Part shown: positions 1,244-14,602 of the stretch, piece by piece
Layout of the letters: the number at the start of each line of letters is the position of its first letter
How positions within the stretch are numbered: the stretch's first letter is position 1
Assembly: GCA_015489955.1 (NCBI GenBank)
Contig: WFYR01000114.1
Location: forward strand, 61,558-125,557
Length of the DNA: 64,000 nt
From: Mesoaciditoga sp.
Lineage (GTDB): Bacteria > Thermotogota > Thermotogae > Mesoaciditogales > Mesoaciditogaceae
Direction of reading: 5' to 3'
Position numbers and translations under genes: made by a program
The notes under the pieces: generated by a model
The model's database searches: none
What the model saw: only the letters and a program-made list of their open reading frames with translations
What the model was told of the DNA's origin: nothing

Positions 1244-2023
1244 TTATTTTTCAAAAGCCTCTTTTACCGTATCGGGAAATCGAGTGGAAATTGCCCGCGC
1301 GATATCGTATCTCCTGCATTTTATAGCTTCCTTAAACAACATCGATAAAATTTCCAAAGAAGAAGTTTTCTCAAATCCTTTTTCAAGGTAGTCAATATCA
1401 GAGGTGGCTTCGTACATGATTTTGTAATACTCCTCCGGAAAATGATCTTTTACCAACTTGGCTTTTTGAATGAGAATATCCTCGTAGTAATCTTTTAACT
1501 GTCCAACTATTAAGTCCGTTTTGATGACGTTCAAAATGGTTTTGCAAAATTCAATAATGTCTTGGGGACTAGAGGCATGTTCGAGACTGGCTATTCTATC
1601 TATGTAATAGCCTTCTATTTCATTTACGGCTTCAGAAGCGTAAAGAGCAACGTCCTGGTTATCACTTGAAAGAAAATACACGAGAACTTTCATATTTTGT
1701 TTCACTTCAACTCCTTTTTTCACCAACTCCTTCAATTCCAATATGGCTGCTTTCTTTTGAGCGGCGCTTCCAAGCTTTGATATAACCCTCAGCGGCATGC
1801 TTTCCAGATATTTTGAGCTTCTAAACTTTTCATTCCTTTCAATTAACGAGTCTGGTAATTTGGAAAAGGCGTCTTTCTTCACCCAGATAGGTACAAAAAG
1901 TCCAAGGGGATACGTTAAAATGGCTATAACCACAGATGAAATGTCGCGATGAATCGCGTAAAGAAGTAGGACGTTAAGCGCACCTATAACGAGATTCCAC
2001 ACGTTTACGTGTTTGATCATCAA
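1244..2023 (-). CDS. pelE: PelE-like protein: two N-terminal TM segments followed by a helical repeat region
   Basis: 259 aa, hydrophobic N-terminus (VWNLVIGALNVLLLYAIHRDISSVVIAILTYPLGLFVPIWV) then a soluble helical region; directly downstream of pelD. Confidence 0.65.
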   Translation of the reverse strand: MMIKHVNVWNLVIGALNVLLLYAIHRDISSVVIAILTYPLGLFVPIWVKKDAFSKLPDSLIERNEKFRSSKYLESMPLRVISKLGSAAQKKAAILELKELVKKGVEVKQNMKVLVYFLSSDNQDVALYASEAVNEIEGYYIDRIASLEHASSPQDIIEFCKTILNVIKTDLIVGQLKDYYEDILIQKAKLVKDHFPEEYYKIMYEATSDIDYLEKGFEKTSSLEILSMLFKEAIKCRRYDIARAISTRFPDTVKEAFEK

Positions 2024-2051
2024 GTAAACATTTGCAATGCCAACAATGCCG

Positions 2052-3254
2052 TTAGCAATTGACAGAAATTGATACTTTACCTTCGTACTTATTTTTGAGT
2101 CTATTCGCTATCAACTCCTTATTTTTTTCATCGCAAACGGAAAGCAACACTTTCAGCGTTACCTTTCCATTTTCCTTTCTTAGAACTGTTACAAAATCAT
2201 CTTTTCTGAATTCTCGAATCACACTTTTAAAAACTTCCTTACTCACTTCTAAACACAATATAGAATATGGTATTCCAAATCTCTTTTTCCTTTCGGCGTA
2301 ATCTTTTTTCATCTTATCAAAATAATCTTCATCCCAGGTGCCATCAGTCATTCTATGTTGGGAAACGAATTGAGAATCCATCACTTTGGCATTTTCTATG
2401 TTCGCATGAAACCATTGAGCAAGGGCACGTAAATGTTCGGCGAATTGACGTGAAAGCTTGTCAACATCTTCCACAACTATTACCCCATCATTATTTTTAG
2501 GATCTCCTATTAAAACCGCAACCCATGGTTCGTACTCTTCTATCTCATTGGAGAGAAGAACATCTGAAATAAGGGCTGCTCCGTTTTCAAAGGCATTCTT
2601 TATTACCAAAGAATCTTCAAGTTTCAACGAATTTGGAAGGTATCTCCTTCCTTTGCCGACGAAGAACCTCAAATACCCGTTGTTTTCCCTATAGATAGAT
2701 ATTGATTTAACACCGAAAACTTCGGAAATTATTTCCACAAATCTGGAAAACATTTCCTCTACATCAAAGATTTCCAATTCGCGCAGGCGTTGAAAGACAA
2801 GGGAAAGCCCATTTCCCTCCAAAAACAAGTTTCCTTTAAGGTTTTCAAGCGTTTGTTTCATTTCTCCAATCGTGTTCTTTAAATCCAGAATTTTTTCTTC
2901 TTTTTCTTCTTTCTCACGCTCAAGCTTTAAAATCTTTCTTTTGTGTGATTCCCCCACTATTCCCAACAAAGAACCAAAGATGGCGGCTACAAGGAGTGAA
3001 GAAGAAAAAAGAAATGGGTTCACTGGCATTTTTTGAATGTAAAAGGAAAACATAAGAACGATTATAAATTCAACAGACGTCATCAAAAAAGCATCCAAAC
3101 CCCACCATGCGCTTGCAAGAAAAATCGTTATCCAATAGGGATTAAACGAATATCCCACAAAGCCTTTGTGCTTGCCAAATACATCTATTAAAAAAATTGC
3201 CAAACTTAAAGCGCTCGTTTCCAATAAGAGCTTCACATCTTTATGTTTTTTCAT
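2052..3254 (-). CDS. pelD: PelD-like membrane c-di-GMP receptor (TM + GAF + degenerate GGDEF)
   Basis: N-terminal TM helices, coiled coil, GAF-like middle, C-terminal degenerate GGDEF with RxxD (FRKDDFVTVLRKENGKVTLKVLL). Overlaps pelG by 14 nt. Confidence 0.75.
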   Translation of the reverse strand: MKKHKDVKLLLETSALSLAIFLIDVFGKHKGFVGYSFNPYWITIFLASAWWGLDAFLMTSVEFIIVLMFSFYIQKMPVNPFLFSSSLLVAAIFGSLLGIVGESHKRKILKLEREKEEKEEKILDLKNTIGEMKQTLENLKGNLFLEGNGLSLVFQRLRELEIFDVEEMFSRFVEIISEVFGVKSISIYRENNGYLRFFVGKGRRYLPNSLKLEDSLVIKNAFENGAALISDVLLSNEIEEYEPWVAVLIGDPKNNDGVIVVEDVDKLSRQFAEHLRALAQWFHANIENAKVMDSQFVSQHRMTDGTWDEDYFDKMKKDYAERKKRFGIPYSILCLEVSKEVFKSVIREFRKDDFVTVLRKENGKVTLKVLLSVCDEKNKELIANRLKNKYEGKVSISVNC

Positions 3255-4623
3255 TCTTCCACACCTTTACCTTCCCACTCTTTAATGTGCTCTTTTGTCT
3301 TGTATATTCCACGTATATGAGCGAATCGTATTTTTTGAAAAAAGTGTACATCAAATACACCGTTCCTATCATGAAAGCAACTGTAAATCCTAAAGCGGGA
3401 TAAGATTTCGTAGTTAAGATGGAAATCACAAAATTCGTTACAAAAGTTAACAAAGTCGCACGGTAGGCTATCTCTCTAAAATCAAAGTAAAAAACTATGA
3501 GCAAAAAGAAAAGAAAAAACGCGTTAAAAGTGGCTCCCAAGATCCCGAGTCGTAGTATTTTCAAAGATTCTATTGGCAAGTTCAAGTAAATTACAAGCGG
3601 AAAACTCATTATCATCCCCACAAAAGAAGAAGCTATTTGAACTGCAAAAACCGTTAAAATAGCGTGATGGAGATACATGTCCATAAGTTTTTTTCTTTTT
3701 TTAATCTCTTCTAAAGTACCGTTACGTTCCAACAAATCGTAAAAAGCTTTGTATTGCTCGTAAAATCCGACTTCTACGTTTATTACAAACAATATCATGG
3801 TAGGTATCACGAAAAGGTATGAAATGAACATGGGTATATCGTAAAGTGGGGCAAGCCTGTATCCGTCGTAAAAATTTCTTCCAATCATGATCCAAGCTAT
3901 GAAATCGTCAATCCAAATAGAAGAGTAGTAAAACACGCCAACTAACATATTTTCCCAGTATTTTCTAACCTGCGAAAAGATCTCAAACGAAATGCCATTG
4001 CTCTTAAGGTTTTTGAAAATTATGAAGTGTAAAGCGTAAACGATAAATCCAATTCCGATATCATACAAGAAATAAGTCCATTCTTCATTCAAATGAAGTA
4101 GTGAAATTGTAACCAATGAAAATGAATTTCCAAGGACAAAAGCCAAAATAAGGTAAGAAAATTTTTCTATCATTGAAGCGTAAATGACCTGTATCCATAA
4201 AACTGAAAGGGTAACGAAAAGGTATGAAGAGAAAAGTATTTGATAGAATCTATAGTCATGATGGAAAAGGTAGAAAATCACAGAAATGCTTAACGATATC
4301 ACAAATACCAAGAAGATATTGGCAGAATACTCTTTGTATACTCTTTTGACATCTTTCATGTAAACTAGATCCGAAATCCTTCTGTTTATAACGAAACTGA
4401 GAAAACCGTCTATGATGGTTGAAAATATGAAAGCATAAGCCAGGGAAATTCTAAAAAAACCTATGTTCAACCCGAACAAAAAATGTTGAATGAAAAAGAC
4501 GTTTAGAGACATGATCAGCCACGGGCCAGCCGAAATCAGGGCGGAGTAAAGTAGCGCAAGCGTCGTGCTTGTAAGGGTATCTTTCACCAACATTTTTTGA
4601 AGTTTAAAGCCTATGCCAGCCAA
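3241..4623 (-). CDS. pelG: PelG-like polytopic membrane exopolysaccharide transporter
   Basis: PelG-like N-terminus MAGIGFKLQKMLVKDTLTSTTLALLYSALISAGPWLIMSLN; multiple TM segments. Confidence 0.88.
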   Translation of the reverse strand: MAGIGFKLQKMLVKDTLTSTTLALLYSALISAGPWLIMSLNVFFIQHFLFGLNIGFFRISLAYAFIFSTIIDGFLSFVINRRISDLVYMKDVKRVYKEYSANIFLVFVISLSISVIFYLFHHDYRFYQILFSSYLFVTLSVLWIQVIYASMIEKFSYLILAFVLGNSFSLVTISLLHLNEEWTYFLYDIGIGFIVYALHFIIFKNLKSNGISFEIFSQVRKYWENMLVGVFYYSSIWIDDFIAWIMIGRNFYDGYRLAPLYDIPMFISYLFVIPTMILFVINVEVGFYEQYKAFYDLLERNGTLEEIKKRKKLMDMYLHHAILTVFAVQIASSFVGMIMSFPLVIYLNLPIESLKILRLGILGATFNAFFLFFLLIVFYFDFREIAYRATLLTFVTNFVISILTTKSYPALGFTVAFMIGTVYLMYTFFKKYDSLIYVEYTRQKSTLKSGKVKVWKNEKT

Positions 4624-4638
4624 AACGATCAGCCTTTC

Positions 4639-6846
4639 TCAAAATACTTTTATCTTCATAATGCGAGAAAACATTTCTATAACGTACAAATTCGAATGGT
4701 GGTACTTGTACAGGATCTTTCCTCCTTCTAAATTCACCTTTTCGCTCGTTCTAAAGAAAAAATAACGCGGAAGATCACAACCATAAGGCAATAAAACGTC
4801 TATCTCATCTTTTTCTCTTTTATAAATTGGAACCTGGGTAAAATAACTTTTAAATATCTCGGCAGCCTCGTAAGCGTAATGATTTTCAAGCCATGGGTAA
4901 TAATTTTTCATCGTGAAAAGGAATTCTTCCATGCTTCTCTTCATCTCTTGCCAACTTTTGTGAAGGGGATTTCTATCTGGGGAAAAGAGATCATCTGGAT
5001 GGAAAAAGTACTGATAGGTTCCAAAGTTCATAACGGCAGAGATGGAATCTTTTAAGAGACGAGATACAGGGTAGTATCCGGCTGTGGTTCTCGGCAATAT
5101 GACCGTACCATCGATTATTCCGTATTCACCAAATGTTCCGGTACTATCGTATGAAGTGCCAACTAATTTCAAAGAGGGAAAAACACTTTTAAGAGCCTTT
5201 AATCCTTCTTCATCTATCATGTTATTTGGAGCTATAAAACTTACCGGCCTGTAATCGTTACCAGACACCACTTTCATGAAAGTGGCCAGAGCTTTATATG
5301 CGTTTTTCAAATTCGAAAAAGTCCAGTTTCTGGAAATCGGAGATTGGTGATTGTAACCATGAAGCCCCAAATTGTATCCATCTTTTTGAACACTTTTCAT
5401 CTCAAGAAGTGGATACGGTGTAAGAAGAAAGGCAGAAAAATCGTAAGGCCATTTCTTTTTTCCATTGTAACTGGTAACAACGGCGGTGGTGTACTTCAAA
5501 TTCATTTCTTTTCCTATCTTTTCTATATCTTTCCACCAGATATTGTAGTAAAAATCCCCATCCGTTACATCTCCAAATTCCTTTGTTATCATCTCTCTCT
5601 TTATTCCATAAGAGGGAAGTGGAAAATCGTCTATGAAAACAGTATAGGAATTTACCACAGACTGAATCGAGTTCCTCACGCTCGCCATGAGAACTTGAAG
5701 AAAAAGTCCCCTTAAAGATTTATCCTTACTCATCTTTACAGGGTAAAAGATGAGTTTTCCTTTTCCAATATTCAAGGACCAAACTAATGGTATTTTCTTC
5801 TCTGAAGACCAAATCAACACTCGGGAGTTCTTATAAGGCTTAACAACGCTTAAGGTTGTCGAAATTGGCATGTGGAAATCTGGTGGCAATGGAAAAACGT
5901 CCTGACTCACATCGGCAGATTTAACATAAATTTCTTCGCTGCCGCTCCCCAAAATCATCACCACTCCACCGGAAGAAATGTAATTCATCAACAACGAGCT
6001 TTTAATCGGTAATTTACCATTCACTTCTACAACCGCCATGTAGCGTTCAACGTAATCAACTGGAACGCTAGAAATATCGTAAGGGAGTAAAGCGTAATCC
6101 AAAGATCTTTCGATATTTTCGTCCTTTCCCATTAGAAGTATTCTATTTTGCATTTTTAAGCTTCCAATTATAAAAGCGGAAATGAGTTTTGAAAAGTCCA
6201 AAACAGCGTTTCCGCTTGAATCGAAGATGAAATTGAAGAGAGCAATGCCACCATTTGTTCCAAGAGTGATAAGAGGGTAAGTTTTTCCATCAACTTGCGC
6301 GCTTTCTATAACATCGACATTCTTTGAAAAAACGGTGTAGAGTTCCAAGCCTCGTTTTCCGTAATCTGGTGTGTGATGAATGTATTCTCGATCAAATTTC
6401 AAGTTCTCAATTTTTGCCTCTTTCCAACCACCCCTGTAAGAAATTCCCAAGAAGTTGTAAACTGCGTTTAATTTTGATAGAGAAACAAGCTTTCCGCTTT
6501 CGTCTTTAGAAGCTCCTATGTTGTTTATAATGAAAAGCTTTCCACCCTTCATCAGGAAAAATGACAATTTTTTAAGGTACTCTTCTGGATTTTTCATTCT
6601 TGAAGAATAGTAACAACTCACAACAAAATTGTATCCTTTCAAAGACAATTTGGTGGCTTCCACATCAACAAGTTTGTAATTTTCGTTATCAGCCTTAAGT
6701 ACTGGCACAATGTAATTTTTCAGAATAGAAAGGCCATAACCATTCTCAGAGCCTTTGTACAACAAAAGTGTGTTAGAAAAAGCGCTGATGAAAAAAGATG
6801 CCAACAGAACAAGAAAAAGAATTTTCGTCTTCATAACATGATTCAC
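4639..6846 (-). CDS. DUF2194-type secreted protein with CE4-like deacetylase signatures (PelA deacetylase-like)
   Basis: Signal peptide; YTVFIDDFPLPSYG (Asp-Asp) and LGLHGYNHQSP (HxxxH); position in the pel cluster. Confidence 0.7.
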   Translation of the reverse strand: MNHVMKTKILFLVLLASFFISAFSNTLLLYKGSENGYGLSILKNYIVPVLKADNENYKLVDVEATKLSLKGYNFVVSCYYSSRMKNPEEYLKKLSFFLMKGGKLFIINNIGASKDESGKLVSLSKLNAVYNFLGISYRGGWKEAKIENLKFDREYIHHTPDYGKRGLELYTVFSKNVDVIESAQVDGKTYPLITLGTNGGIALFNFIFDSSGNAVLDFSKLISAFIIGSLKMQNRILLMGKDENIERSLDYALLPYDISSVPVDYVERYMAVVEVNGKLPIKSSLLMNYISSGGVVMILGSGSEEIYVKSADVSQDVFPLPPDFHMPISTTLSVVKPYKNSRVLIWSSEKKIPLVWSLNIGKGKLIFYPVKMSKDKSLRGLFLQVLMASVRNSIQSVVNSYTVFIDDFPLPSYGIKREMITKEFGDVTDGDFYYNIWWKDIEKIGKEMNLKYTTAVVTSYNGKKKWPYDFSAFLLTPYPLLEMKSVQKDGYNLGLHGYNHQSPISRNWTFSNLKNAYKALATFMKVVSGNDYRPVSFIAPNNMIDEEGLKALKSVFPSLKLVGTSYDSTGTFGEYGIIDGTVILPRTTAGYYPVSRLLKDSISAVMNFGTYQYFFHPDDLFSPDRNPLHKSWQEMKRSMEEFLFTMKNYYPWLENHYAYEAAEIFKSYFTQVPIYKREKDEIDVLLPYGCDLPRYFFFRTSEKVNLEGGKILYKYHHSNLYVIEMFSRIMKIKVF

Positions 6847-7742
6847 TCCCCTTGAATGCCAGGAATGACATTCAAATTGTTCAACTTCATATTGCTCCTG
6901 GCAGCGTAAGGCACAAGACCACTTTTTCTCGCAAGTTCCACGTAATCTTCAATTCTTTCCATATTTTCACCGCTGTAACCGCTTCCATCGTCAACGTAAT
7001 CTACTGAAAGCACCTCTACACCATTTTCAATAAACGGTTTTATCTCATTCAAAATTGAAGAATAATACGATGTTCTTCTTTTACGCGTTTTCAAATAAAA
7101 TAGGCTCTCCACGCTTAGGTAATTCACCAAATTCACGATTGAGTGGTCAAAGTCGTATAGGTCGTAAGCATTTAGTATGGATATCTTTTCCTCACTTCCT
7201 AACCATTTTCTTACATCTTTTAAAAGCGTCACCATTTCACCTGCATGCTTCTTTTCATCTTGAAATGATTTGTAAGCGTCTACACCATCCAGATAAACCC
7301 CATCAAAACCGGCATTTTTTATCTTACTCACGTATTGATGCATCGCATTTTCCCATATCGGGTTGTCAAAATCCAAAATCAGGTGTTCGCCACGCCACCT
7401 TGTGTCATCATTTCCAACAAAAGTGGCATTTTTTATTTTGTTCCAGTAAAACCTCCATTCCTCAGCGTAACCAACGTTCATGTAAGCCAGCACGATCTTT
7501 CCTCCGCTCTTCATCTCTTCAACTTCCGTTGCATTTAAGGCTTTAGAGTCACTTCCATCGTAGGAATAGTCCACCACAACGATGTTGAAATTCGTTTTGG
7601 ATATAGAAGAGGGTGAAAAATTTTGAAATTGGCATAACCACGTTTTCGCATTTTCAGTCTTATTGGCCTTTGCGCATCCACTTAAAATTAAGATCGTAAC
7701 GACAAAAAAGACCGTTAAAATGTATTTGTAATATCTCATCAT
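6843..7742 (-). CDS. GH114 / TM1410-like glycoside hydrolase lipoprotein (PelA hydrolase-domain-like)
   Basis: Lipobox LILSGC; TIM-barrel motifs IVVVDYSYDG, KIVLAYMNVGYAEEWR, GFDGVYLDGVDAY. Overlaps the next gene by 4 nt. Confidence 0.78.
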   Translation of the reverse strand: MMRYYKYILTVFFVVTILILSGCAKANKTENAKTWLCQFQNFSPSSISKTNFNIVVVDYSYDGSDSKALNATEVEEMKSGGKIVLAYMNVGYAEEWRFYWNKIKNATFVGNDDTRWRGEHLILDFDNPIWENAMHQYVSKIKNAGFDGVYLDGVDAYKSFQDEKKHAGEMVTLLKDVRKWLGSEEKISILNAYDLYDFDHSIVNLVNYLSVESLFYLKTRKRRTSYYSSILNEIKPFIENGVEVLSVDYVDDGSGYSGENMERIEDYVELARKSGLVPYAARSNMKLNNLNVIPGIQGE

Positions 7743-7857
7743 TCTTATTTTATCACGTTAACAAGTGCCACCTTTCACTTTTTTATCTCTACACCCTTTA
7801 TCATATACGCACTGAAGTGGCAAAAGATGATAAAATATCAGTTAAGAGGTGAAAAGT
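7743..7857. promoter_or_regulatory. Divergent intergenic region between the two pel arms with mirrored elements
   Basis: TGATAAAAT on the minus strand (ATTTTATCA 7747-7755) and on the plus strand (7828-7836), each preceded by TGGCA (minus, complement of 7766-7771; plus, 7817-7822). Confidence 0.45.
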
Positions 7858-8235
7858 GTGAGCAAGCGTCAAATTATTCTCTTTGTCGTCTTTTCATCGT
7901 TGGCCATAGTGTTTGTCCTTTTGATCAACGGAAGGAGAAGTATGGAATTGAGGGGTGATAAGCCTATCGATTTCGTTTACGCGATAGAAGATTTAGACGC
8001 TGCAATGAATTTTGGAAATGAAAGCGAATCTTTGAAATATTTCAACGCGCTTCTGAACACACAAAAACTGATAACTCAAAGGGCGGAAGAGCTTTACAAG
8101 CTGGGCATGTGCAACGAAAAAATCGTTGAATATCTCATGGCAAACGATCCAAAATTCATACTTAACAACGCTTCTTTAGAGGAAAAAGCAAAAGCTGAAA
8201 AGATCATAGAATTGGTGTACGGTGGCAAAAAGTGA
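7858..8235 (+). CDS. Small single-pass membrane protein, pel-associated, unknown family
   Basis: GTG at 7858 after SD GAGGTG; N-terminal TM QIILFVVFSSLAIVFVLLI; 4-nt overlap with pelF. Confidence 0.6.
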   Translation: MSKRQIILFVVFSSLAIVFVLLINGRRSMELRGDKPIDFVYAIEDLDAAMNFGNESESLKYFNALLNTQKLITQRAEELYKLGMCNEKIVEYLMANDPKFILNNASLEEKAKAEKIIELVYGGKK

Positions 8236-9632
8236 AAGTTGGGATTGTGGTCGAAGGGACCTACCCGTATATAACCGGTGGAGTTTCTTCGTGGTTACAA
8301 ACGTTAATAGAAAACCTCCCTGACATCGATTTTAAGATAATCTACCTTGGACCAAAGGAAGAAGAAAGAGCATTTGCCTACGAAATCCCTTCTAACGTCT
8401 CGGAAATATGGTCTCAATCTCTCTTTTCTCAGTTTCAGAACAAAAATAAAAAGTTGAAAAACGCTTCACTTCTTTCGATGAAGATAAAGCGCCTAATAGA
8501 TATAAACTGGTCAAAAAGGATTGAAGAAACGCGAGAAATACTTCATTTAATCCTTGAAAACGATTTTTTAGAATTTCTAAAAAGTAGGGAGTTTTGGGAT
8601 GCAATGGTTGACGTCTATGAGCGCTATTTCTCAGATGAAGGATTCACCAGATATTTCTGGACCGTCAAAGGATTTTTTTTGCCTATAGTGAACTCATTTT
8701 CCATAGCTCCGCCGCCAAAATGTGATATTTACCATGCCATCACGACAGGTTACGCTTCGCTAAAAGCCATCAGGGGAAAGTATGAATACAATTCGAAGAT
8801 GATCGTGACGGAACACGGTATTTACCATCGCGAAAGAGAAAGAGAGATAATAACTTCAAGGCTAATTCCAGAGATTTATAAAACCCCATGGATAGAACTT
8901 TTTAAACTTATAAGTGCTGTTTCCTACGAGGAAACTGATCTGTTGACGACGCTTTTCAAAAAAAATCAGCAATTTCAACTCGAATTAGGGGCCAGTAAAG
9001 AAAAAATGCGAATCATTCCAAATGGCATAAACGTTGAGAAGTTCAACGTGAAAAGGGTTTCTCACTTCACTTTTATAATAGGCTTTGTTGGACGTGTAAC
9101 GGAAATAAAAGATTTGAAAACGGCTTTTAAGGCTGTAAAACTGGTATCAACCGAGGTAAAAGATCTCAAATTTCTTCTAATAGGGCCGACAGACGAAGAA
9201 CCAGAATATTACGAATTTTGTTTGGAATTAGTTGAAAGTTTAAGACTCCAAAATGTGGTTGAATTCGTGGGAAAGGCAAATGTTTTGGATTATTATCCTC
9301 TCATCGACGTTTTAATTTTGAGTAGTATTTCGGAAGGTCAACCCTTGGTGATCCTCGAGGCCATGGCAGCTGGCATCCCAGTTGTCGCCACGGATGTCGG
9401 AGCGTGCAGGGAGCTTCTTGAAGATGAAAATGGTCAAAGCGGATTCGTGGTACCGCCTAAAGATTACACCAACCTCGCCAACGCCATTTTAAAGCTTTAC
9501 AACGATAAAGAACTTTCTCTTGCATTTTCTAAAAATGGCAAAGAAGTGGTAAGGAAGAAATACACTCTGGAGAAGATGATAAATTCGTATAAAAAACTTT
9601 ACGAAGATGCCATAAACAAGCCTTCAAACTAA
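8232..9632 (+). CDS. pelF: PelF-like GT4 glycosyltransferase
   Basis: MKVGIVVEGTYPYITGGVSSWLQTLIENLP; IIPNGINVEKF; SSISEGQPLVILEAMAAGIPVVATDVG. Confidence 0.9.
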   Translation: MKVGIVVEGTYPYITGGVSSWLQTLIENLPDIDFKIIYLGPKEEERAFAYEIPSNVSEIWSQSLFSQFQNKNKKLKNASLLSMKIKRLIDINWSKRIEETREILHLILENDFLEFLKSREFWDAMVDVYERYFSDEGFTRYFWTVKGFFLPIVNSFSIAPPPKCDIYHAITTGYASLKAIRGKYEYNSKMIVTEHGIYHREREREIITSRLIPEIYKTPWIELFKLISAVSYEETDLLTTLFKKNQQFQLELGASKEKMRIIPNGINVEKFNVKRVSHFTFIIGFVGRVTEIKDLKTAFKAVKLVSTEVKDLKFLLIGPTDEEPEYYEFCLELVESLRLQNVVEFVGKANVLDYYPLIDVLILSSISEGQPLVILEAMAAGIPVVATDVGACRELLEDENGQSGFVVPPKDYTNLANAILKLYNDKELSLAFSKNGKEVVRKKYTLEKMINSYKKLYEDAINKPSN

Positions 9633-10516
9633 AATGATGATCCCTTTAAAACGAATTTCACCCATTTCTTAAGCTTTTGAACATCCTTTATTTTGGAAAC
9701 AAAAACCATGTTTATTCCCTTTTCTTCCGCGCTTAAGGAAGAAAAACCTTTCGATTTAAATTGAGAAACCAAATCGTCCGTTGAAATACTCTTTCCTTCA
9801 AACAAATACACGACAATCTCCCCCACACTTTTTGTCACTCCTTTTACCAATACGATAGAGATATCGTTTACCCTTATTGAAGTGATACTCACGTTGTTAA
9901 GATGGTAAATCATCTTCCATACTTCTATTTCCATCGCACTTGGTGGAGTATTTATAACTTTAAATTTTTCTATAACTTTTTCAAAATAAAAAGCGGGAAC
10001 TTTTTTTATCGAATTGTACGTTATCGTTAATTGACCATTCGCACGTTGAACGTTAAGTTTTACAAGTAAAAAAGATGGCTTCAAAAAAATGCCCACGTAA
10101 GTGGCGCTCTTGTTTTTTACTTCTACTTTGTAAGCTTTATTTCCGTTATAATCGACAACCGCCGTAGACAATTCAGTTGGTGTTGAAGCGAGACATTTCA
10201 TGAATTTTCTTTCCATATCGACTATCATAGCCGGGGATCTTTTCATTTCATTTTCAAAAACCACGTACGTCTTCCCATCCAGATAAGCCCACTCAAAAAA
10301 ATCGGGAGCCACAACTTTCACTATTTCGTTGTATCCTTTTCTTAAAATTTTTTCGTAACGCACCTTCGTACCCTTTTCAGATTGCTCTACAACTATTCTC
10401 TGTCCTTCTACAACCTGCGAGGCGTAAGCCGAAATTATGTTTTCTCTCAAATCTCCAAACACGCTTACGCTTAAAGCAAAAAAGACCACAATTAAAAACC
10501 ACACGTTTTTACTCAA
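9629..10516 (-). CDS. Secreted RseB/LolA-like protein linked to the anti-sigma factor
   Basis: Signal peptide; MucB/RseB-like N-terminal pattern (ISAYASQVVEGQRIVVEQSEKGTKVRYEKILRKGYNEIVKVV); overlaps the anti-sigma ORF by 4 nt. Confidence 0.55.
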   Translation of the reverse strand: MSKNVWFLIVVFFALSVSVFGDLRENIISAYASQVVEGQRIVVEQSEKGTKVRYEKILRKGYNEIVKVVAPDFFEWAYLDGKTYVVFENEMKRSPAMIVDMERKFMKCLASTPTELSTAVVDYNGNKAYKVEVKNKSATYVGIFLKPSFLLVKLNVQRANGQLTITYNSIKKVPAFYFEKVIEKFKVINTPPSAMEIEVWKMIYHLNNVSITSIRVNDISIVLVKGVTKSVGEIVVYLFEGKSISTDDLVSQFKSKGFSSLSAEEKGINMVFVSKIKDVQKLKKWVKFVLKGSSF

Positions 10517-10959
10517 AATTGATCACTCACATCTTTTATGTGAATCATGTAAGTGAAATCGTTACTTCTATTACTTCTTTCAACGCTCGGAGAGGCTGCT
10601 GAAGTGCTCTTCAACATTTCAATGCCCCTGGAAGCTACACGTTGGTACACTTTCTGATTACTTGTAAAGGGCTTCCAAACGAAAAAAGCACCTATTGCTA
10701 TTACGGCTGCGGTTGAGACGCTTGCCATGTACAATTTTTTAAGACTCTGCCGTTTCTTAACTTTTGAAAGCACCTTTTCTTTTAATTCACTTGAAGGAAC
10801 GTAATCAATCCTCGCTTTCATAAAGCTTTTCACATTTTTGTACCTTTCAACGAAAATACGACATTCATTACAGTGTTTTAAATGCTCTTCAAAGGCTTTT
10901 TTTTCTGCGGGGGTCATTTCACCATGTATGAATTTTTCTCTATACTCATTACAATTCAT
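10513..10959 (-). CDS. zf-HC2 transmembrane anti-sigma factor
   Basis: HLKHCNEC (HxxxCxxC) in the N-terminal domain plus one TM segment (ASVSTAAVIAIGAFFVWKPF). Confidence 0.8.
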   Translation of the reverse strand: MNCNEYREKFIHGEMTPAEKKAFEEHLKHCNECRIFVERYKNVKSFMKARIDYVPSSELKEKVLSKVKKRQSLKKLYMASVSTAAVIAIGAFFVWKPFTSNQKVYQRVASRGIEMLKSTSAASPSVERSNRSNDFTYMIHIKDVSDQF

Positions 10960-11534
10960 CTCTCACTCTCCCCACTTTCGTTTCTTCTTTCCAATATCGC
11001 TTTTAATTTCTCTCTCGCATAGTGTAATCTGCTTTTCACCGTGCCTACAGGTTTTTCAACCACGGCTGCGATTTCAGCATAACTCATATCTTCTATTTCC
11101 CTTAGCGTTATGAGAAGTCTATCCTCTTGTGATAGAGCCTCAATTGCCTTTCGTATTTCTTCCTCAGAGATTTCCTTCAAAAACTCATCCGACGGTTTGT
11201 TTTCTTCCACCGGTTCCAAAAAGCTTTTTTCGTCATCTTCCTCGAGTCCAAAACTCGTCAAGATCTCCTTTTTTCTATGCTTTTTTGCGCGCATATCTTT
11301 ACACACGTTAACGGTTATACGGTATATCCACGTCGACAAAGAAGAATCTCCTCTGAACTTTTTAATGTTCTTGTAAACCCTTATGAAAACTTCCTGAACG
11401 ACGTCTTCAACGTCATCAACGCCAAGATAAGATTTCGCTATTCTTCCTATCCTGTTCACGTGTTGAGCGTACAGTTTTTCGTAAGCTTCTGCCTTTCCTT
11501 TTTTTAAATCTCTTATAAGTTTTAACTCATCCAA
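10956..11534 (-). CDS. ECF-type RNA polymerase sigma factor
   Basis: Sigma2 (DVEDVVQEVFIRVYKNIKKFRGDSSLSTWIYRITVNVCKDM) and sigma4 (LLITLREIEDMSYAEIAAVVEKPVGTVKSRLHYAREKLK). TTG start at 11534 preceded by GGTGGT; the ORF could extend to 11588. Confidence 0.9.
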   Translation of the reverse strand: MDELKLIRDLKKGKAEAYEKLYAQHVNRIGRIAKSYLGVDDVEDVVQEVFIRVYKNIKKFRGDSSLSTWIYRITVNVCKDMRAKKHRKKEILTSFGLEEDDEKSFLEPVEENKPSDEFLKEISEEEIRKAIEALSQEDRLLITLREIEDMSYAEIAAVVEKPVGTVKSRLHYAREKLKAILERRNESGESER

Positions 11535-11601
11535 GTGATTACCACCTATCACCACGTATTGGACTAAAAGCACCTCAAATAAGTTCAAAAAATAAAAATC
11601 C

Positions 11602-11959: not shown

Positions 11960-14602
11960 CTAAAAATTCAAGCCAATCTTGTACACGAGACCATTTTTTA
12001 AATGATCATAAGCGATCCTTACCTCAAACTTAAATTCGCTGTAAAAAAGGGAATCGAAATTAAAATCGCCCTGAAGTCCAATTTGAAAATCGTGATTTGT
12101 TACGTTGAAATTCGAAAACTGCAGAAGATCTACGCTTTTGAAACCAAGTGTGCCAGTTAAATTGTACCATCCAACTTCCATTCTTGGAAAAGAGATGGCT
12201 TGCAGAAGATCCACACTGGAATTTTTGTTTCTTATTCCAAGGCTTGAAACTATTCCAAATAACGGAAAAGAAGTGCTAACGGACACATCATGAGTTGGCG
12301 TTGACGCTTTTAAAGGTGAAAAATTCATATTCCATACGCAGGAAAAAGAATTTACCCCCATGGAATTATTAGGTACGAAAGATGGATCAAAGACGTATTC
12401 GCCACTGAAGTTAAAGTCATCGGTGATTTTCTTTCCTTCTTTTTTTACGGTGTATTCAATTTCAGGGTAAAGAAGAGCATCTCTTCCCCACATCACAAAA
12501 GATACTGGTATGGATAAAGTCGCGTCTATTCTCTGTTTTTGCAAACTCATTAAACCTTCCAACTCTAAATTGTACTTCCCGTAATTCACCATCCCCACCG
12601 CAAGGCTATCCTCTGTACTATCGGTTGAAAGCAACGCCAGCGCGTAAAAGTTGTTCCATCCCAGCTTATCTCTTAAGATATCAAAACCTACAACGCTGTA
12701 CTTTGCTTTAAGATTTGTGGAAGAAGCGCTCGAAAAAGAAACACCTGGTATCAATCCCTTCGCTACAGTTTCAAAAGGGGAATGATAAGTTTTTGATTTT
12801 TCTTCAACGTTCAGGTATATCTCGGTTAAATTCAAACTATTTTTATACTCTTTTCCACTCCAATCAAAATAGTCTACCTTCTTTAAAGTGGAAGCCCATC
12901 TGTCCAGGACAAAAAGGTTGTATCCATTCTCCGTGTAAGAAGTGTAGAAGAGTTTATTTCCACTCAAAAGCGGCGAAAAAGCTCCAAGCTCGACGTTGGT
13001 AACCTGATAAAATTTCTTTTCAACGGTATCGAAGAAGTAAACGTTAAAAACACCGTTTTTATTGGCGGGAGAAGCTGAAAAGAACACGTATCTCCCATCT
13101 TCACTGACAAACGGATCCATTTTCAAATAAGGACCGCTTATTATCTTTTTTACTTTTCCATCTTGGAAAAGCTCGTATATATCTTCAAAATTTCCATCGT
13201 AAGCCGAGAAGTAAATATCGCTTTCATGAGCTGTCATTGAGGTTATCACCAGTGGCGAAAGGTGCATCAAAGTTTTAAACGTTCCACTTTTTAAGTTATA
13301 CTCTCTTACAGCATAAAGTCCACCATCTTCTTTCGAATAAGCCAACATATCATTCGTTACCCACACAACATCAAGTGGAGATCTCAGTGGAAGTTGAAAA
13401 ATGGAATGTTTCTTCAAATTAAGTACAAAGCACACACTTTGATTGACAAAGCCTTCGTCTTTTGGTACGAATCTAACGAATGCAAGCTTTTGTCCATCTG
13501 GAGATATTGCCATAGATCTTACGTATCCCCCTTCGTATAAAAAACCACCCAGAGAATAAACATTCCGCTCAGTTGAATTTGAAATATCAAATTCTTTTAT
13601 TCTCGGAATATCGCTGGAAGACTCAGAGTAAAAGAAGATGCTTTTACCTGAAAGCGCGCTAACAAATGCGGTCCATCTACCGCTGTGAGTCAATTGAGTT
13701 CCTACTATCTTTTCGCCTACTCTTGAAAGCTGTGAATTCACTTCCTTTTTCACATCGCTTATCCAATTATCAACCAATTTTGCAAAAGGAAGTTTTGTGG
13801 CCTTCGAAAAAGCGTTCGCCACTCCGAGAATATGATGAGATGAAAGAATATTTACCGCTCTTTTTAGAGTTGCGCTTCCAAATGTGGAAGAGATGTACCT
13901 AACAAAACTTCCTCCAATTATGTATGGAGCGCCCATTGGGTACCAGCCATCCGAATTGTAAGTGGCAGCGCCTCCAAAACCGTTAAACCTTTTAGAAAGC
14001 ACTAAACCCTTGAGATACATTTCAAACATCGGATCGTTGAGGCGTCCCTTTTCTTTGTTGAAATGTGTCTCTGAATATTCTGCCAATCCTTCTTGAAGGT
14101 AAGCCGGTATAAATGCCGAATTGTAAACGGTTGAAAGCGGATTTCCATAAACTCTGACTTGAGGAAGGCCTCCCATCTGAGTGAGCAAGATGTGGGTAAG
14201 TTCATGAGTGAAAACAAAATCAACCCAATTTCCAACGCTTTGCGTGAAAAAGGCCCTTTGGGAAGAATTGAGAAATATGTATATAACGTTGTCTACTGGA
14301 TCTGCAGCTGAATTTACCAAACTGGTGTCGTTTTCAAAGACAACGGTTAATTTAGAAAAAGGCTGAACGTTGTAAAAATCGGTGATTTTTTTGTATATGT
14401 CGTCACAATTCTTCAAGAATTGGTAAACGGCCCACTCGCTGGATGGTTCGTACACAACGTTAAGGTATTTCGTTGAAACGACCTTGTATGATACATTTGG
14501 ATTGGAAATTAGAGGAACAAAAGGGTTCATTGCTCCATAAGAAATCACCATGATTCCAATCAAAAATGCCGCCAGCGTTAACGATCGTCTCAACATTTTC
14601 AT
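11960..14602 (-). CDS. Secreted HExxH metalloprotease with TolB-like beta-propeller and C-terminal beta-rich region
   Basis: WVDFVFTHELTHILLTQMGG with downstream LQEGLAEYSETHF; propeller-like repeats (SPDGQKLAFVRF, SEDGRYVFFSAS); C-terminus ends ...GLVYKIGLNF. Confidence 0.75.
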   Translation of the reverse strand: MKMLRRSLTLAAFLIGIMVISYGAMNPFVPLISNPNVSYKVVSTKYLNVVYEPSSEWAVYQFLKNCDDIYKKITDFYNVQPFSKLTVVFENDTSLVNSAADPVDNVIYIFLNSSQRAFFTQSVGNWVDFVFTHELTHILLTQMGGLPQVRVYGNPLSTVYNSAFIPAYLQEGLAEYSETHFNKEKGRLNDPMFEMYLKGLVLSKRFNGFGGAATYNSDGWYPMGAPYIIGGSFVRYISSTFGSATLKRAVNILSSHHILGVANAFSKATKLPFAKLVDNWISDVKKEVNSQLSRVGEKIVGTQLTHSGRWTAFVSALSGKSIFFYSESSSDIPRIKEFDISNSTERNVYSLGGFLYEGGYVRSMAISPDGQKLAFVRFVPKDEGFVNQSVCFVLNLKKHSIFQLPLRSPLDVVWVTNDMLAYSKEDGGLYAVREYNLKSGTFKTLMHLSPLVITSMTAHESDIYFSAYDGNFEDIYELFQDGKVKKIISGPYLKMDPFVSEDGRYVFFSASPANKNGVFNVYFFDTVEKKFYQVTNVELGAFSPLLSGNKLFYTSYTENGYNLFVLDRWASTLKKVDYFDWSGKEYKNSLNLTEIYLNVEEKSKTYHSPFETVAKGLIPGVSFSSASSTNLKAKYSVVGFDILRDKLGWNNFYALALLSTDSTEDSLAVGMVNYGKYNLELEGLMSLQKQRIDATLSIPVSFVMWGRDALLYPEIEYTVKKEGKKITDDFNFSGEYVFDPSFVPNNSMGVNSFSCVWNMNFSPLKASTPTHDVSVSTSFPLFGIVSSLGIRNKNSSVDLLQAISFPRMEVGWYNLTGTLGFKSVDLLQFSNFNVTNHDFQIGLQGDFNFDSLFYSEFKFEVRIAYDHLKNGLVYKIGLNF

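Follow-up and report, generated by a model that had tools for sequence, protein, structure and literature searches.

A probably complete inner-membrane pel system without PelB and PelC in a diderm thermophile of the Thermotogota

Well-studied diderm bacteria export synthase-dependent polysaccharides through a dedicated TPR-barrel porin, such as PelB, PgaA, or BcsC. A pel type without PelB and PelC has been described in monoderms (PMC7112168, PMC13254593), and in 2026 the PelADA deacetylase of Bacillus cereus was shown to deacetylate alpha-1,4-GalNAc oligomers (PMC13254593). Thermotogae were named in 2020 among the groups with pel operons (PMC7112194), and Thermotogales possess a toga with an outer membrane (PMC3387000, PMC5487896). 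We found no discussion of Pel export in diderm Thermotogota or Fusobacteriota in the open-access literature. Here, we analyzed a stretch of 64,000 nucleotides from Mesoaciditoga sp. (GCA_015489955.1, contig WFYR01000114.1, positions 61,558 to 125,557; hereafter the window), and propose that this stretch very probably equips a diderm thermophile with a full inner-membrane pel system of the PelB/PelC-less type. This confidence covers the identity of the system and the absence of PelB and PelC, not the exit route of the polymer. By gene content, a diderm here carries the "Gram-positive" type of pel.

The pel locus spans positions 1244-9632 of the window and comprises seven genes in two divergent arms approximately 110 bases apart (Table 1). 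Transcribed from around position 7742, the minus arm carries, in order, the GH191 hydrolase, the DUF2194 protein, PelG, PelD, and PelE, and the overlap or close spacing of these genes suggests a single transcript. The plus arm consists of a small one-helix membrane protein followed by PelF. All seven genes lie where the original prediction had placed them, and the two-arm split that it described is present here, but the phylum has other arrangements as well. A promoter scan of the divergent gap gave scores no better than those of shuffled sequence, so that promoters in this gap are presumed only, and a promoter candidate there was dropped. Downstream, an operon unrelated to pel (window 9629-11588) is convergent, end to end, with PelF; it encodes an ECF sigma factor, a zinc-finger anti-sigma factor, and a secreted 295-aa protein that is possibly RseB-like and had no family match, and was seen in this genus only. 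Further along (window 11960-14602), a secreted 880-aa protein with WD40-like repeats has the kind of C-terminus that outer-membrane barrels usually show (GLVYKIGLNF) and is likewise found close to pelF in this genus only.

Table 1. Features of the Mesoaciditoga pel locus, in window coordinates.
Feature	Position	Strand	Length (aa)	Characteristics
PelE-like inner-membrane protein	1244..2023	-	259	N-terminal membrane segments, then helical repeat-like region
PelD-like c-di-GMP receptor	2052..3254	-	400	Membrane helices, long helix, GAF, degenerate GGDEF, I-site R350xxD353
PelG, polysaccharide flippase-like exporter	3241..4623	-	460	PF16933, E 1e-98
PelADA-type polysaccharide de-N-acetylase (DUF2194)	4639..6846	-	735	N-terminal signal/anchor; PF09960, 2.4e-142
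GH191-type endo-galactosaminidase, predicted lipoprotein	6843..7742	-		TIGR01370 above cut-off
Divergent intergenic region	7743..7857			Presumed shared control region of both arms, from sequence
Small single-helix membrane protein	7858..8235 (alternative GTG start 7849)	+	~125	Candidate accessory subunit
PelF, GT4 glycosyltransferase	8232..9632	+		Chain polymerization; NF038011 and DUF3492

Library HMMs identified PelF through the NF038011 PelF equivalog (353 bits against a cut-off of 100, E 2.3e-105) and a DUF3492 match (1.3e-75), and PelG through a PF16933 match covering nearly the whole profile. In an unrooted tree with few rows from outside the Thermotogota, a 100/99 branch splits proteobacterial PelBC-type PelF from DUF2194-type PelF, and in similarly sampled unrooted trees the Thermotogota PelF and the Thermotogota PelG each form one well-supported group far from the characterized enzymes. 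The expectation that HMM searches would assign all four core proteins held for PelF and PelG, but PelD and PelE gave no usable Pfam or NCBIfam match and were assigned by profile-profile comparison, with an additional fold search for PelD. Profiles built from 16 Thermotogota and five proteobacterial PelD proteins matched each other with a probability of 98.3 (E 1.6e-14), and R350 and D353 of the window protein align with R367 and D370 of the L060 PelD, the established RxxD site for c-di-GMP, a motif that is invariant in 16/16 Thermotogota sequences. The eight best PDB matches to the AlphaFold2 model of PelD (mean pLDDT 83.7) were all PelD structures; we take their low global TM-scores to reflect different domain angles. 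With its GAF domain, degenerate GGDEF domain, and c-di-GMP I-site, this PelD presumably places the system under c-di-GMP control, and the 12 GGDEF matches in the genome mean that c-di-GMP synthesis is probably possible. For PelE, a profile of 16 Thermotogota relatives matched the proteobacterial PelE profile with a probability of 94.3 (E 1e-7), and the protein comes after PelD in the loci examined; profile match and position together give moderate support for its identification as PelE.

The hydrolase and deacetylase activities of PelA had been assigned to two separate proteins, and matches to PDB structures bear this out. The DUF2194 protein (4639-6846) matched B. cereus PelADA (PDB 9ZAU) at E 2.3e-30, and its residues D406, D407, H496, H500, P540, R586, H616, and D619 correspond to the PelADA active site (D262, D263, H350, H354, P405, R458, H488, and D491). 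These eight residues are kept in 20/20 Thermotogota and Fusobacteriota sequences, except for P540 (19/20, with one Pro to Ala change); the locus thus has the separate DUF2194-type deacetylase with a complete active site that marks Gram-positive-type pel. The hydrolase (6843-7742) matched both GH114 (9.1e-22) and the TM1410-type model (7.7e-54) in library searches, and the TM1410 structures PDB 9EUX/2AAM at E 6.4e-50. Its D152 and E212 align with the catalytic D156 and E225 of TmGH191 (PMC12054363), placing it in GH191, so that the description "GH114-like" holds for the match, but is refined to the TM1410 family GH191 instead of GH114 proper (PMC12054363). A lipobox (LSGC) occupies residues 20-23. 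TmGH191 itself had no activity on fungal GAG, whereas its relative Env-GH191 was active (PMC12054363). The assignment of the locus to Pel is accordingly upheld by library HMMs for PelF, PelG, the DUF2194 protein, and the hydrolase, by profile comparison for PelD and PelE, and by fold for PelD.

Across a survey of 103 Thermotogota genomes, of which 82 reach a completeness of at least 90%, we found PelG in 40, PelF in 41, and DUF2194 in 35, in each case above the cut-off. PelF occurred in 40/40 genomes with PelG, and PelG in 35/35 genomes with DUF2194; five genomes (G052, G053, G054, G058, and G061) had PelF and PelG without a DUF2194 match above the cut-off. Within the family of the window, PelG is confined to its genus (0/8 in sister genera), both genomes of which carry pel in the same split arrangement (L031 being the sole other one searched). 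Gene order in the phylum ranges from single operons (D-E-small-F-G-DUF2194-GH) to loci with a convergent F, duplicated clusters, and split loci. Genus g27 has two distant pel loci, PelG-PelD-PelE and PelF-DUF2194 (L079-L082 and L039-L042), and the Thermotoga-type genomes L047 and L088 have duplicated PelG-PelD-PelE-PelF sets on either side of a single GH191/DUF2194 pair. A protein identical to Thermotoga maritima TM1410 over 274 residues is encoded in two genomes of the phylum (L046 and L088), which identifies the phylum as Thermotogota, the origin that the original prediction had read from the DNA.

The small protein upstream of pelF has a single hydrophobic helix (residues 8-26, counted in the longer frame that starts at GTG 7849), and its predicted structure is a helix plus a helical domain (pLDDT 74). 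Similar one-helix proteins precede pelF in families f1 and f7 and in parts of f8 and f9, matching the window protein weakly (probability 43.7 over 36 columns). Judging by our inspection of the sequences, pelF is preceded by an FKBP-like gene in genera g27 and g28 and by a fucU-like gene in f3, and no gene in this position was seen in f10. A role as a phylum-wide Pel subunit was ruled out, given that other genes or none precede pelF in several groups and that homology is weak.

Neither PelB nor PelC occurs in the window or in the rest of its genome, which is 88% complete in 120 contigs, so that its absences alone are not final. The PelB barrel (PF24604) reached the cut-off in 0/103 Thermotogota genomes; four fragments matched weakly, at E above 0.01. 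A PelC profile built from four sequences found nothing at E 0.1 in the same 103 genomes. Both searches detected positive controls: PelB of Cupriavidus, Azonexus, and Pseudoalteromonas exceeded the cut-off (2e-78 to 2.4e-37) and that of Azospirillum was detected below it (6.8e-6), while PelC was found in Cupriavidus (2.5e-64) and Azospirillum (6e-21), neither of which was used to build the profile. The absence of both proteins, previously noted for the window, therefore extends to the genome and the phylum survey. The genome encodes the outer-membrane assembly factor Omp85 (6.6e-24), which indicates a diderm host. The locus consequently departs from the Gram-positive type in that its host has an outer membrane (Omp85; toga), and from proteobacterial pelABCDEFG in having neither the PelB barrel nor PelC. 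No TolC-type OEP was found in the genome, although one is present in T. maritima. The idea of a conserved outer-membrane gene within Thermotogota pel loci was dropped: scanned neighbors were housekeeping genes, and a screen of these loci for a signal peptide plus a C-terminal aromatic residue revealed nothing shared, while the same screen detected a Fusobacteriota protein. All these exit searches (PelB, PelC, OEP, and locus screen) are blind to an exit protein of unrelated sequence encoded elsewhere in the genome. With Omp85 present and no PelB barrel, PelC, or TolC-type OEP in the genome, the original prediction was fair in leaving open how the polymer crosses the toga.

Fusobacteriota are also diderm, and the pel loci of Cetobacterium somerae (L058) and Fusobacterium vincentii (L059) are DUF2194-type. 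No PelB barrel was found in the records searched, namely, one F. vincentii record (2.1 Mb) and one Cetobacterium plasmid. The former (NZ_CP084075.1) is a Fusobacterium "plasmid" in PLSDB and is, judging by its size, more likely the chromosome. In both genera, PelG has a C-terminal extension of approximately 250-310 residues, and pelG is directly followed by a gene for an unannotated, barrel-like protein of 305-316 aa (L059:11320-12270 and L058:11108-12025; 30% mutual identity) with a signal peptide and a C-terminal Phe. The F. vincentii protein matches an OMP beta-barrel family at the cut-off, and within the plasmid collection this protein occurs beside pelG only. We found no description of it in open-access papers, and regard it, from sequence, as a candidate PelB substitute.

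Strong homology and kept active sites suggest how the system might work. PelF would polymerize a UDP-GalNAc-type sugar in the cytoplasm, and PelD, switched by c-di-GMP, would act with PelE and PelG to pass the chain through the inner membrane. As the chain emerges, the anchored DUF2194 protein would strip off its N-acetyl groups, yielding a cationic Pel-like polymer, which the GH191 lipoprotein may then trim. We infer that the product is Pel, a polymer of alpha-1,4 GalNAc/GalN. That a Pel-type synthase here makes a different sugar polymer would fit the separate, well-supported groups of Thermotogota PelF and PelG and the inactivity of TmGH191 on GAG (PMC12054363), but we consider it quite improbable, since the deacetylase and hydrolase families act on alpha-1,4-galactosamine chains and the catalytic residues are kept. 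Still more improbable is that PelB and PelC are present but went undetected, owing to an incomplete genome or to excessive divergence: the 88% completeness and 120 contigs of this genome would allow it, but absence from all 103 genomes, 82 of which are at least 90% complete, with models that reach the diverged Azospirillum pair, largely refutes this reading.

For the exit of the polymer, crossing of the toga by a route unrelated to PelB, be it an outer-membrane protein, porins, or gaps in the toga, seems likeliest, and retention beneath the toga is the main alternative. A dedicated outer-membrane protein, unrelated to PelB and encoded away from the locus, has a precedent in the Fusobacteriota, diderms in whose searched records a barrel-like protein stands beside pelG and no PelB barrel was found; we give it somewhat less than even credence, as the searched Thermotogota pel loci hold no conserved counterpart and no candidate gene emerged. 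Were the polymer instead confined to the space outside the inner membrane and beneath the toga, it would not be an exopolysaccharide, but might, for instance, form part of the amorphous layer or fill the large polar periplasm. Inside the toga are an enlarged periplasm and an amorphous layer of undefined composition (PMC5487896), the hydrolase lipobox points to an envelope location, and PelB, PelC, a TolC-type protein, and a conserved outer-membrane protein in the loci are all lacking, yet we judge retention unlikely, because PelG in 40/103 genomes does not make a universal toga component and the gene set is otherwise that of extracellular Pel in Bacillus. The broader notion that the amorphous layer is Pel in all Thermotogota is incompatible with the same count. 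More speculatively, and with more doubt than confidence, we envisage a distinct PelBC-independent Pel pathway in nonproteobacterial diderms, with a new pelG-linked outer-membrane barrel in Fusobacteriota and no dedicated exit in the Thermotogota locus, where a cationic galactosamine polymer would either be secreted through the toga by another protein or be kept beneath it.

With a Pel synthase in 40/103 genomes and a PelB barrel or PelC in 0/103, the Thermotogota represent a clear, testable exception to export through a TPR-barrel porin. Their pel loci are also a source of thermostable Pel enzymes, and a polymer under the toga, if it exists, would bear on toga composition.

Among known systems, pelDEADAFG with the divergent pelAH of B. 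cereus ATCC 10987 shares PelD, PelE, PelF, and PelG with our locus (PMC7112168, PMC13254593). Both have a separate DUF2194-type PelADA and a separate hydrolase, and both lack PelB and PelC; c-di-GMP control through PelD has been shown in B. cereus and is predicted for the window locus. Unlike B. cereus, the window host is a diderm with a toga, and its locus differs in gene order, with PelF on the other arm and an extra small membrane protein before pelF. The pelABCDEFG operon of Pseudomonas aeruginosa has the PelDEFG core and the c-di-GMP I-site in common with our locus, which, in contrast, has neither the PelB barrel nor the PelC ring and carries the two PelA activities on separate proteins. 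The Fusobacteriota loci of C. somerae and F. vincentii are likewise DUF2194-type, without a PelB barrel and in diderm hosts, but their pelG is extended C-terminally and followed by the gene for the conserved barrel-like protein, which has no counterpart in Thermotogota loci. The T. maritima TM1410 (GH191) locus has the same type of hydrolase; in L046 and L088, where TM1410 is identical, it lies beside DUF2194 and PelG/D/E/F, in a gene order that differs from that of the window and has no small protein before pelF.
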